DNA of 32,429 nucleotides from Helicobacteraceae bacterium (lineage in GTDB: Bacteria > Campylobacterota > Campylobacteria > Campylobacterales > SZUA-545), in assembly GCA_031288475.1 (NCBI GenBank), contig JAITRJ010000020.1, positions 1 to 32,429 of the forward strand, in the 5' to 3' direction. Under the pieces are notes generated by a model that did no database searches, was not told the DNA's origin, and saw nothing but the letters and a program-made list of their open reading frames with translations. The translations under genes were made by a program, and so were the position numbers. Shown one piece after another: positions 29,289 to 32,429 of this stretch. The stretch's first letter is position 1, and each line of letters begins with the position of its first letter.

Positions 29289-29996
29289 TTAATTGCCATA
29301 ATAATCAATATGCCAATCAATAGTTGTTGAGCCGTATATGTTAAACCATCTTGTTGGATTGTCGCGCCCGCACCAAGCGTTAACGCAGCTAAAGCCGTCT
29401 GAATCAGAGAAGTATTTATAAGCGTCAAACCGTGCGCTCATATTCTCGTTATAATTGCGCCATACGTAAAAGAAGCCGACGGAAGCGGATGAGATTTTGC
29501 CGAATACCTCCTCGAACTTATCGTCATTCGGGACAAAGCCCCCGTTGCCATAAAGCGTAAGTTCAAGCCGGTATTTGTCGCCTTCATCGCCGATTTCGGC
29601 AAGCGCGTGCATCCCCTCCTCCACGGCGCATTTTTCGTAATATGAGTTCGCGCCAAAATAGTTGACGTACCCCGCTTTCGCCAGCCTTTCTCTTAGCTCC
29701 TTCAGCTCCCCTTCGGTTACGGTTACGTAAGAGATTTTGCCAATCGTGTGCGAAAGCGTAGCGCCGCTGCTGTCAAAAGAAGGGAAAAGAAGATAATCTT
29801 CTACACCGCCCGCGCCGTCAATGCTCGCGTTTAATTTACTACAAACGGGATAATTACCGCCCGTCTGATTGCCGGATCCGCCATCCGATCCGCCGCAGCC
29901 GATCAGAAAAAATAAAATGGCTAAGCAGGCGAACAGTTTGTTCAACGTTCTTCTCGCAAATGGGGGGGGGGGGGGGGCAAGAAAGAAGCGCGGCAC
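29289..29996 (-). CDS. Putative phase-variable secreted lipoprotein of unknown function
   Basis: In the sequenced state the open frame starts at GTG 29996 and gives 235 residues. The hydrophobic signal LFACLAILFFLIGC ends in a lipobox with the lipidated Cys at residue 34, followed by the Gly/Ser-rich tether GGSDGGSGNQTGG. The mature part (about 200 residues) has a Cys in each third and no family I know. A run of 16 C encodes the Pro stretch before the signal. The ATG at 29998, which has AAGGA eight bases upstream, is out of frame with this run and stops after 18 codons; 17 or 14 C would join it to the lipoprotein. A TTG at 29945 after the run is an alternative start. A near-consensus promoter lies upstream. 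Confidence 0.75.
   Translation of the reverse strand: MPRFFLAPPPPPFARRTLNKLFACLAILFFLIGCGGSDGGSGNQTGGNYPVCSKLNASIDGAGGVEDYLLFPSFDSSGATLSHTIGKISYVTVTEGELKELRERLAKAGYVNYFGANSYYEKCAVEEGMHALAEIGDEGDKYRLELTLYGNGGFVPNDDKFEEVFGKISSASVGFFYVWRNYNENMSARFDAYKYFSDSDGFSCVNAWCGRDNPTRWFNIYGSTTIDWHIDYYGN
29962..29977. repeat. Homopolymeric G/C tract of 16 bases
   Basis: Sixteen consecutive G on the plus strand, C on the coding strand, lie between the ribosome binding site and the signal peptide codons of the lipoprotein. Tracts of this length are known contingency sites in Campylobacter and Helicobacter. The exact length may vary within the population or be a sequencing error. Confidence 0.9.
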
Positions 29997-30033
29997 ATCT
30001 CGACGATCCTTGGATTTTTTTGACGAAGACGGG

Positions 30034-30061
30034 ATTATAATCTTTTTTTACTAACCGTCAA
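30034..30061 (-). promoter_or_regulatory. Near-consensus promoter of the lipoprotein gene
   Basis: On the minus strand TTGACG (30061-30056), a 16-base spacer and a perfect TATAAT (30039-30034) are present. Transcription would start near 30027, about 29 bases before the ATG at 29998, so the homopolymer is inside the transcript and would act on translation, not on the promoter. Confidence 0.75.
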
Positions 30062-30555
30062 TAATTTTACGAACCGGGCTTTCAAACAAAACTCAGGGAT
30101 CGGGGGCTTAATGTCTTTCCGCCGAAACGCCGCGCGATTACGACGCGGCGTTTCGGAAGACGACGCTGAAACTGGAGATTTGCGCCGTCCGCAATTAGGA
30201 AGGGAAGCGTAGCGCTTCGTCGTCGGTCGCTCTTCGCGATTCCAGCGCCGCGTTGCCTTCTCGCGCGACGCTGGATGCCTGCGCCAAAGGCGAGCGCCGC
30301 TCGCGCTTCTTTCTTCCTTGCGACAGCGGCGGATTAAGAACGCCCCTATTACGAAACGCGCGGCGCAAACCGCAGAGACGAAGGAGCTTAAAATCGCCGA
30401 CGGGATATCAAGGCTGATGTATTCTGAAGAAAACCGCGGTTGATCCCAGGGATGATCACCAGCGATACGGTGAATTTTAAGAAACTGCAAAAAACAAAAA
30501 ATTACATAAATATCATCCGGGAAGAACTTATAATTGTTTTCATCTTTACTGTGCG
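30062..30555. other. Gene-free interval with strong inverted repeats
   Basis: About 490 bp between the lipoprotein promoter and the end of the dam pseudogene. It contains the 13-bp hairpin at 30122-30156 and an imperfect one from CCAGCG (30242) to CGCTGG (30274). The open frame on the minus strand is Arg-rich and made from these repeats, so it is not taken as a gene. Confidence 0.5.
30122..30156. repeat. Perfect 13-bp inverted repeat
   Basis: CCGAAACGCCGCG (30122-30134) pairs perfectly with CGCGGCGTTTCGG (30144-30156) around a 9-base loop. No T-run follows on either strand, so a repeat-type or mobile palindrome is more likely than a terminator. Confidence 0.8.
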
Positions 30556-31386
30556 CTACTCATAATTCCGCACTATCACTTCATCAATTTCGGCGCGTTT
30601 TGCCTGAACAACGGTAATGTTGTAGGACGCGTACCGCTCTTTTATAAAATCTGTCGCGGAGGGAGTTTGAAAGCATAAATTTTATGCCCCTCGCGTCCAG
30701 CTCGTCGCATGCGGCGCGGAGCGCAATCTGATCTTCGCGCGAAAAACTTCCGCGCGCGTAACCCGTGAAATTGGCGGTATCGGACGCGGGGTCATAGGGC
30801 GGATCAAGGTAGACAAACGCCTCTTTTGGCAGCGTTCGAAGCACGTCGGCGTAATCAATTGATGTCATACTGACCGCGGCGGCGTTTAAGTACGCGCTTA
30901 CAGCCTGAAGTGTCGGGGCGTTTACGATGTTCGGGTTGCGGTAGCCGCCAAACGGCGAGTTGAATTCTCCGGCGCTGTTTACCCTAAACAGCCCGTTGTA
31001 GCAGGTCTTGTTCAGATACAGGTCTTGTTCAGATACAGAATACGGGCGGCTTTCTCAACGGCGGTTCGCGCTTCGTACGCGGTTTTGTCTCTGTCCCAGT
31101 CGCGGATGGCATAGAAATAATCGGCTTCGTTTCTAAACGTTTTCAAAACGGCTATGAGCGCTTCAGCGTTGTCTTTGATCGCGCCGTATACGCCCATCAA
31201 CTCGACGTTTATATCGTTGATAAAGGCGGTCTGAGGCTGTAAGTTAAAAAGCAGCGCTCCGCCGCCGACAAACGGCTCACAGTAAACGGTTATATTATCG
31301 GGCAGCAGCGAAATCAGCGCGTCGAGCAACTGCCTTTTGCCGCCAGCCCATTTCAAAACGGGCGCGGCTGGTTTGTTTTTCTTCAT
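30556..31386 (-). pseudogene. dam: Dam-type (D12 class) DNA adenine methyltransferase, frameshifted twice
   Basis: Joined across two frameshifts the protein is a full D12 methyltransferase: PVLKWAGGKRQLL (motif X), CEPFVGGGALLFNL (motif I), the mid part YNGLFRVNSAGEFNSPFGGY, YLDPPYDP (motif IV) and a tail ending EIDEVIVRNYE. The first break is a 17-bp tandem duplication at 31002-31035 after LYLNKTC. The second is a 4-bp duplication (GGAG twice, 30658-30665) after MLSNS; removing it restores ATDFIKERYASYNITVVQAK. Between AKRA and EIDEV about ten residues usual in the family are also missing. Family knowledge: such enzymes methylate the A of GATC-type sites. An upstream ATG at 31425 overlaps a TATAAT box, so the ATG at 31386 is preferred. 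Confidence 0.88.
31002..31035 (-). repeat. 17-bp tandem duplication that frameshifts dam
   Basis: CAGGTCTTGTTCAGATA occurs twice head to tail (31002-31018 and 31019-31035). Removing one copy restores the reading frame LYLNKTCYNGLFRVN, which is what the family has. Confidence 0.95.
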
Positions 31387-31515
31387 CAGGCGCGGACTCT
31401 TTTTCGCAACGTTGACTGCGCGCATTATACGCCCGCCTCGCTACAAAGAGCGTTTCTTATTAACCCCGCCGCAAAACGCGCGATCAATACGCGATGGACA
31501 AAAGGACCAGCGGCG

Positions 31516-32139
31516 CTAACGGGTATTTGCCGCGGCGAATACGATTAGCAGCAAAAAGACATTAAAGATAACGATCAAAACGATCGGCAGTACGACCGCC
31601 CATCGGTTAAACCCGCCGTGAAGCGCCATTGTTGAAACGCGATCTCCCTCCTCCGCGTATTTGCCTTCAATCGCCTCTTTCAAATCGCAGTATCTTTTAA
31701 TCACAAAATACGGTGCGAAGCCTCCGATCAAAATCCAGAAACATAAAAACGCCGCGCAGCAAACGGCGGAATAGGTCGCGATCTCGCGCATCATATGCTC
31801 GATATGCGCGGGCACCGCGTCGGTGAATGCGATATGCAGCATCCCTAACTCTGCCATCTTTTTGAAAACCATAAGTTTTTCCGTCGGCGCAAAGACTTCC
31901 ATAAACACGGATAAAACGAAACTGACGCCTAAAATGCCCAACGCCGCCAAATACGCTTTGCGGTAAAGCGGAAAGAAAATGCCGCCGAAAAACGCCCACC
32001 ACGACCATTTCCAGCATAGTTTAGGAGAGCCAAGCCGCATAGCGCGATTGTACAGATCGCGGTAAAACGGCATTTTAGCGGGCTTCGAGACAAACGCGGA
32101 AAGCATCTTTTCGTCGTAATCGCTCTGTAAAACAGCCAC
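31516..32139 (-). CDS. DUF2628 family membrane protein
   Basis: A 207-residue protein with a short soluble N-terminus and about four membrane segments. The segment WSWWAFFGGIFFPLYRKAYL followed by AALGILGVSF is the DUF2628 hallmark; helices near FLCFWILIGGFAPYFVIKRY and VLPIVLIVIFNVFLLLIVF follow. Function is unknown. The start chosen is GTG 32139: AAGGGA lies just upstream and a TACAAT box at 32172-32167 would start the mRNA about 20 bases before it. The frame is open to 32262, but the extra codons cover a palindrome with a poly-G tract. Confidence 0.7.
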   Translation of the reverse strand: MAVLQSDYDEKMLSAFVSKPAKMPFYRDLYNRAMRLGSPKLCWKWSWWAFFGGIFFPLYRKAYLAALGILGVSFVLSVFMEVFAPTEKLMVFKKMAELGMLHIAFTDAVPAHIEHMMREIATYSAVCCAAFLCFWILIGGFAPYFVIKRYCDLKEAIEGKYAEEGDRVSTMALHGGFNRWAVVLPIVLIVIFNVFLLLIVFAAANTR

Positions 32140-32198
32140 TATACTTCCCTTTGCATTTTTGCCGCCATTGTAACCAAAATAATGTTCGCGGACATAAT

Positions 32199-32250
32199 GG
32201 ATTGGGCGAACGGGAGGGGGGGGGTAAACCCCCCTCCATTCGCCCAATCC
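32199..32250. repeat. Long inverted repeat with G9 tract
   Basis: Outer arms GGATTGGGCGAA (32199-32210) and TTCGCCCAATCC (32239-32250) pair perfectly over 12 bp. Inside, GGAGGGGGG pairs with CCCCCCTCC, and nine G in a row lie at 32216-32224. It sits just upstream of the DUF2628 promoter region. It could be a bidirectional terminator or a mobile palindrome. Confidence 0.85.
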
Positions 32251-32429
32251 GAAGCGCGTCATAGACTGAGCAAGGCAGACAGGTGAGGCGTATTGTAAGT
32301 CCCGCTCAAAAAGCGGCAGTCAGTTCTTTACTGACTGAGCGGCAAGGCTTGCGGATACCAACTGTCAATGTGCCTTATATCGTTTCATTACTGTCTGCGG
32401 TGGTATTGGGGAGCAAGGCAGACAGCCTC
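32251..32429. repeat. Repeat-laden end of the window
   Basis: GAGCAAGGCAGACAG occurs at 32268-32282 and again at 32411-32425. A related GACTGAGCGGCAAGGC lies between. CAGTCAG (32317-32323) and CTGACTG (32331-32337) form a 7-bp hairpin. No gene is visible in these 180 bases. Confidence 0.6.

Follow-up and report, generated by a model that had tools for sequence, protein, structure and literature searches.

A putative poly-C contingency switch of a lipoprotein gene and a repertoire of similar candidate switches in a family of Campylobacterales

We analysed a 32,429-nucleotide (nt) contig of an uncultured Helicobacteraceae bacterium (JAITRJ010000020.1, hereafter "the window"), which is part of a 1.25-Mb, 71%-complete genome. 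The lipoprotein gene described below is on the minus strand of the window. A lipoprotein gene in the window has a homopolymer of 16 C in what would be its translated leader, and this tract is very probably a contingency locus that switches the lipoprotein by slippage. Judging from the sequences of related genomes, the gene appears to be one of a large set of similarly switched lipoproteins in two genera of its family. In the proposed mechanism, the C tract would lie within the leader, between the start codon or codons and the lipoprotein signal peptide, and slipped-strand mispairing would alter the number of C. Any change that is not a multiple of three would bring a strong ATG into the frame of the signal peptide and body or take it out of that frame, such that single cells would either make the lipoprotein or not make it. 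The assembled length of 16 C would be OFF for the ATG, although a GTG that overlaps it may give a low level of expression and the OFF state might also leak through transcriptional slippage or frameshifting on the C run. We infer from the sequence that the tract slips in this population and that the ATG is used as the start; switching would presumably be of benefit.

The promoter, ribosome site, start codon, tract and lipobox named in the original prediction were all found at their predicted places by inspection and pattern scan. A promoter-like site, recognised by consensus only, consists of TTGACG (30061-30056), a 16-bp spacer and TATAAT (30039-30034), with 11 of 12 matches. A Shine-Dalgarno-like AAGGA (30011-30007) follows and stands 8 nt before the best start, an ATG (29998-29996), and 10 nt before a candidate GTG start (29996-29994). 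Seven codons from the ATG (MCRASFL, 29998-29978) lead into the 16-C tract (29977-29962), the proposed slippage switch. After the tract come the remainder of the lipoprotein signal peptide (FARRTLNKLFACLAILFFLIGC, 29961-29895), with a TTG (29945-29943) as a weak alternative start and the lipobox LIGC, whose Cys codon is 29897-29895, and then the mature lipoprotein of 202 amino acids (29897-29289, stop codon 29291-29289), in which a Gly-rich linker precedes an alpha/beta domain. Because the tract lies 3' of both the promoter and the start, its effect would be on translation.

We computed the reading frames for 13 to 19 C. The ATG opens into the lipoprotein at 14 and 17 C, the GTG does so at 13, 16 and 19 C, and neither does so at 15 or 18 C, where both are truncated. 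In the assembly, with its 16 C, the ATG frame closes after 18 codons, as had been predicted; the GTG, described earlier as lying two bases later, is indeed in frame at this length and overlaps the ATG (ATGTG). The wrong-frame products are 17 to 48 amino acids long, the repeat being in the 5' coding region where a shift leads to an early stop. The length of the tract exceeds chance: about 6e-5 G/C runs of at least 16 would be expected in a 1.25-Mb genome (first-order Markov model, window composition). The genome has about 30 runs of at least 9 as compared to about 2.4 expected.

To compare the gene across its relatives, we searched 60 related genomes (labelled G001, G002 and so on, the window's own being G000). 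The body had matches in five of them at 41-62% identity: G012 (62%), G013 (55%), G014 (43%), G007 (41%) and G010, where the match was in two frame-shifted pieces. The G007 homologue has 13 C in frame after AAGGAG and an ATG, followed by MPLPSIFTFTPPPPPPLTERRT...LIGC; in this ON state it reads MPLPSIFTFT-PPPPPP-LTERRT. Different outcomes were obtained for the other homologues. In G013, a 26-nt CT repeat, (CT)13, stands in frame before the signal peptide. Short CT remnants occur in G012 (8 nt, in frame) and in G010 (out of frame), and the G014 copy has no repeat at this place. The repeat thus keeps a common position among the homologues, but it differs in class and is open to loss.

The leaders themselves were examined at 30 loci where the repeat is preceded by a start whose Shine-Dalgarno site has at least 5 matched bases. 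The start frame contained one stop in 775 leader codons and the other two frames contained 31 and 43 (Poisson P ~3e-15 if the loci were independent). Twenty-nine leaders were open, and their phase relative to the lipoprotein was mixed: 6 were in the lipoprotein frame, and 11 and 12 were in the two wrong frames. The proportion in frame is compatible with one third (P = 0.17). Leaders that are kept open and yet have random phase are the pattern expected of a slipping repeat. If the repeat were a fixed coding element, every locus should be in frame, and a leader that is not translated should lose its open frame. Together with the homologues whose repeats are in frame, out of frame or lost, these data support the translational switch by tract length that had been proposed.

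Similar length differences were observed among paralogues. On three contigs of G012, a start region and leader of about 95 nt are letter-for-letter identical while the bodies are about 40-52% identical. Their CT tracts of 22, 24 and 28 nt give predicted products of 29, 541 and 31 amino acids, such that only the 24-nt tract reads through. These differences are evolutionary variation between paralogues and not cellular variation. Three contigs of this genome (loci L239 and L240 on G012:C51 and C52, and L173 on G012:C14) end at almost the same base 5' of an identical cassette that precedes different GLUG-type bodies; these are either paralogues or alternative arrangements in the population.

In the genera labelled g1 and g6, runs of at least 9 C numbered 26-61 per genome; five other genera had 0-1 in the same family. 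We scanned the fetched loci for a C tract (at least 8) or CT repeat (at least 4 units) that had a hydrophobic stretch and a lipobox after it within an open frame, and obtained 41 distinct loci in g1 and g6, a total that later-fetched loci raise. Reversed patterns served as a control. A CT repeat 15-45 nt before GGYTGYG occurred at 18 distinct places in the family (two of which were not lipoprotein starts on inspection) versus none for the reversed pattern. C tracts beside a lipobox occurred 28 times versus 9 reversed in g1 and g6. In contrast, they occurred 26 times versus 24 reversed in 284 genomes from the order's other families, and the association is thus a property of these genera. The relatives' CT repeats read Leu-Ser, before or inside the signal peptide, and one switched lipoprotein in G011 (15 C) matches the neuraminyllactose-binding haemagglutinin family.

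In G002, signal cassettes of about 84% identity over 185 nt precede bodies that have no detectable similarity: RCC1-repeat bodies and another family, members of which carry GLUG repeats in other genomes. It may be, although we would put this at somewhat under an even chance, that 5' cassettes bearing repeats were copied or recombined onto unrelated surface-protein bodies (GLUG-repeat, RCC1-repeat and unknown ones). A cassette would comprise the ribosome site, the coding leader, the C or CT repeat and the lipoprotein signal. Any recipient body would become switchable, and the repeat class would follow the cassette and the genome, not the body.

Two further candidate features were rejected. The leader motif TTCAGCTTCNNTTAAGA was considered as a general mark of the system and was found in several genomes, but many of its matches in G001 were an unrelated repeat; the window's genome has two degenerate copies. 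A shared 5' cassette for the window gene within its own genome was not found; the gene's 5' DNA matches other loci via the C run only.

Repeats were also observed at other kinds of genes. L065 (G000:C45:24809, 23 C) and L080 (G002:C46, 12 C) are orthologous outer-membrane proteins from one genus that have a C tract directly 5' of the signal peptide, a layout that matches that of the lipoprotein loci. A 21-G tract lies within a short-chain dehydrogenase gene (L064, G000:C45:7647-7667), possibly another phase-variable gene of the window's genome. In the same genome, an 18-C tract precedes an AlgX-like SGNH hydrolase domain (L050, G000:C14:28690-28707) and a 15-G tract lies within the signal peptide of a secreted protein of 200-odd residues (L051, G000:C15:10467-10482). 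CT repeats of 22-46 nt follow short open reading frames (ORFs) that share the motif ...SQSVFSEAEGFVSLSLS... in G013 and G007 (L138, L145, L150, L154, L155 and L158); these are not lipoprotein starts and constitute a second CT-repeat family.

The product of the window gene has the hallmarks of a bacterial lipoprotein. Its signal RRTLNKLFACLAILFFLIGC has a positively charged n-region, a hydrophobic core and a lipobox Cys, and the lipobox is invariant across five aligned relatives. The mature protein had no sequence match in Pfam, NCBIfam or PDB, the signal peptide giving only a sub-threshold match in NCBIfam; the original description as a lipoprotein of unknown family therefore holds. An AlphaFold model built from five sequences is alpha/beta, with a mean predicted local distance difference test score (pLDDT) of 81. 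A fold search against PDB and a viral library gave a best template-modelling score of about 0.4 and no match with an E value below 0.001, and so no function follows from the structure. With no Pfam match, a lipobox and an alpha/beta model, the body is not of the Hop outer-membrane type. The lipobox, together with the types of gene at which such switches are found, suggests that the protein is exposed at the surface.

The window has three further features. An exact 14-nt inverted repeat (29979-29992 and 30302-30315) brackets the promoter and start of the lipoprotein gene and ends beside the C tract. It is the sole one of that length with 100-600 nt spacing in the window, as compared to 0.27 expected, and may be due to chance or represent a possible invertible segment. 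A dam-like DNA adenine methylase gene on the minus strand (31425..30572) is interrupted by an exact tandem duplication of 17 nt (31002-31018 and 31019-31035) and by a later frame shift near 30640. At the 5' end of a membrane-protein ORF (31516-32262), a C9 run sits in a 22-nt inverted repeat that has a G-rich and a C-rich arm (32199-32250).

Several observations weigh against slippage control of the window gene. The 16 C are an assembled length, the population being represented by the assembly alone, and the exact count may be in error, as the relatives' data set is from NovaSeq, which can yield false poly-G. The switch is not kept everywhere, as little more than a short CT remnant is left in the closest relative, G012 (62%). 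The leaders are related to one another, so that their counts are not independent and the numbers overstate their independence. We found no MutL above cut-off in the family, which is expected if mismatch repair leaves slippage uncorrected; however, the genera that have no tracts also lack MutL above cut-off. Loss of mismatch repair was accordingly rejected as the reason why only two genera have tracts, since a family-wide absence does not discriminate between them. Contig ends near tracts (5 of 28 within 150 bp versus 0.4 expected) were not counted as evidence; they would fit mixed tract lengths in the population but equally a failure of homopolymer sequencing.

One possibility is that an error of assembly or of two-colour sequencing created the tract and that the true run is short and fixed. 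The relatives' data are from NovaSeq (PMC11257099), and one contig of the window's genome (G000:C35:1-66) opens with an implausible 36 and 29 C in a row, which is probably such an artefact. We regard this as very improbable, as the tract is interior to a 32-kb contig whose coding is consistent on either side of it and as tracts adjoin signal peptides in several genomes. The same position is also taken by CT repeats, and these are not a product of the chemistry. Another possibility is that translation starts after the tract at TTG 29945, which has GAGAAG 4 nt upstream, and that the tract is untranslated or merely tunes expression. This is highly unlikely. The AAGGA and ATG are positioned as for initiation upstream of the tract, and the coding leaders would not be explained if they were untranslated. 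Moreover, 33 of the 41 loci that share this layout lack any ATG, GTG or TTG after the repeat that is far enough upstream of the Cys, and the possible post-tract starts in the window gene and in the G007 homologue are TTG codons only. A start at TTG 29945, which the original prediction had named as a finding that would refute it, consequently fails for most of the family and was rejected for the layout as a whole; indirectly, these sequences suggest that translation starts before the repeat.

It could also be speculated that the switch worked in an ancestor and is now a relic, the gene being either out of frame or translated from the GTG at a length that no longer changes. The repeat is lost from the closest relative and the neighboring dam-like gene is broken; however, a pure, uninterrupted run of 16 bases is unlikely to persist without ongoing slippage and the body is intact over 202 codons, and we consider a relic improbable. 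A different reading keeps the slipping tract and adds levels to it: modest expression from the GTG at 16 C, strong expression from the ATG at 17 or 14 C, and none at 15 or 18 C. The computed frames permit exactly these states, and the spacings of the AAGGA to the two codons (10 nt and 8 nt) would accommodate both. On the other hand, an overlapping GTG is expected by chance in about 1 of 16 cases, the G007 homologue does not have it, and the paralogues mostly have one clear start, such that the relatives lend no support. Three levels are conceivable but somewhat less likely than not, and a tract that slips within a translated leader is the preferred explanation for the window gene.

Four relatives that encode the lipoprotein have the accessions JAIRWX, JAISMA, JAITEA and JAISOU. 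A termite-gut study deposited JAIRJQ-JAITXW, assembled with MEGAHIT at up to k = 119 from NovaSeq reads (PMC11257099), and as the accessions fall within this range the relatives appear to be termite-gut genomes. By kinship, the window's own genome is likely to be from a termite as well. The relatives' public reads (PRJNA732531) would permit a direct test of the switch. Termites have no adaptive immune system, and to our knowledge large switch repertoires have so far been known mainly from pathogens. Our literature search found no account of phase variation in Campylobacterales from termite guts, although such an account may exist; the repertoire of lipoprotein switches in these apparent termite-gut bacteria appears to be undescribed, while the contingency mechanism itself is known. 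Dozens of switchable lipoproteins, if true, would suggest that selection comes from phages, innate defences, protists or competition. If cassettes are indeed exchanged between bodies, phase variation in these insect-gut symbionts would be modular, in hosts that lack adaptive immunity. The two repeat classes and the repeat-free relatives within one family also provide a natural comparison for the gain and loss of switches.

The mechanism is shared with the Helicobacter hop genes and the poly-G genes of Campylobacter (PMC3960876, PMC6321876, PMC2823697). The Helicobacter pylori outer-membrane genes oipA, hopZ, sabA and babA have CT repeats (PMC10564699). The likeness lies in these repeats, which are also used by relatives of the window gene; the window gene itself has poly-C, unlike hop, while a homologous body in another genome uses CT. 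Hop proteins are porin-like outer-membrane proteins, whereas the repertoire here consists of lipoproteins that have a separate translated leader. C. jejuni has a median of about 20 G/C tracts per genome (PMC6321876), likewise long homopolymers in reading frames, as compared to the 26-61 runs reported here, and the text of that study, which describes PhasomeIt, names no lipoproteins. In C. jejuni 81-176, dinucleotide repeats are not typical contingency loci (PMC13317227); in contrast, C and CT repeats here serve one protein class. In Helicobacter canadensis, tracts of the type seen in translational phase variation occur in sixteen coding regions; all of the translational cases are poly-G and none dinucleotide (PMC2823697), unlike the set described here, which includes CT repeats. 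Among the mycoplasmas, the variable lipoproteins Vlp and Vpma form a combinatorial repertoire of switched lipoproteins, and Vpma switches by site-specific recombination (PMC11868660). These organisms differ in their switches and have neither a cell wall nor an outer membrane. The Vlp switch is a repeat in the promoter. The opa genes of Neisseria are a multi-gene surface family in which each gene has its own repeat in the signal-peptide region; the repeat is a pentanucleotide and the bodies are a single paralogous family, whereas here related leader and signal cassettes precede unrelated bodies. Compared to these systems, ours is a well-supported case of a known mechanism, with a repertoire that is unusually large and mixed and a host setting that is unexpected.
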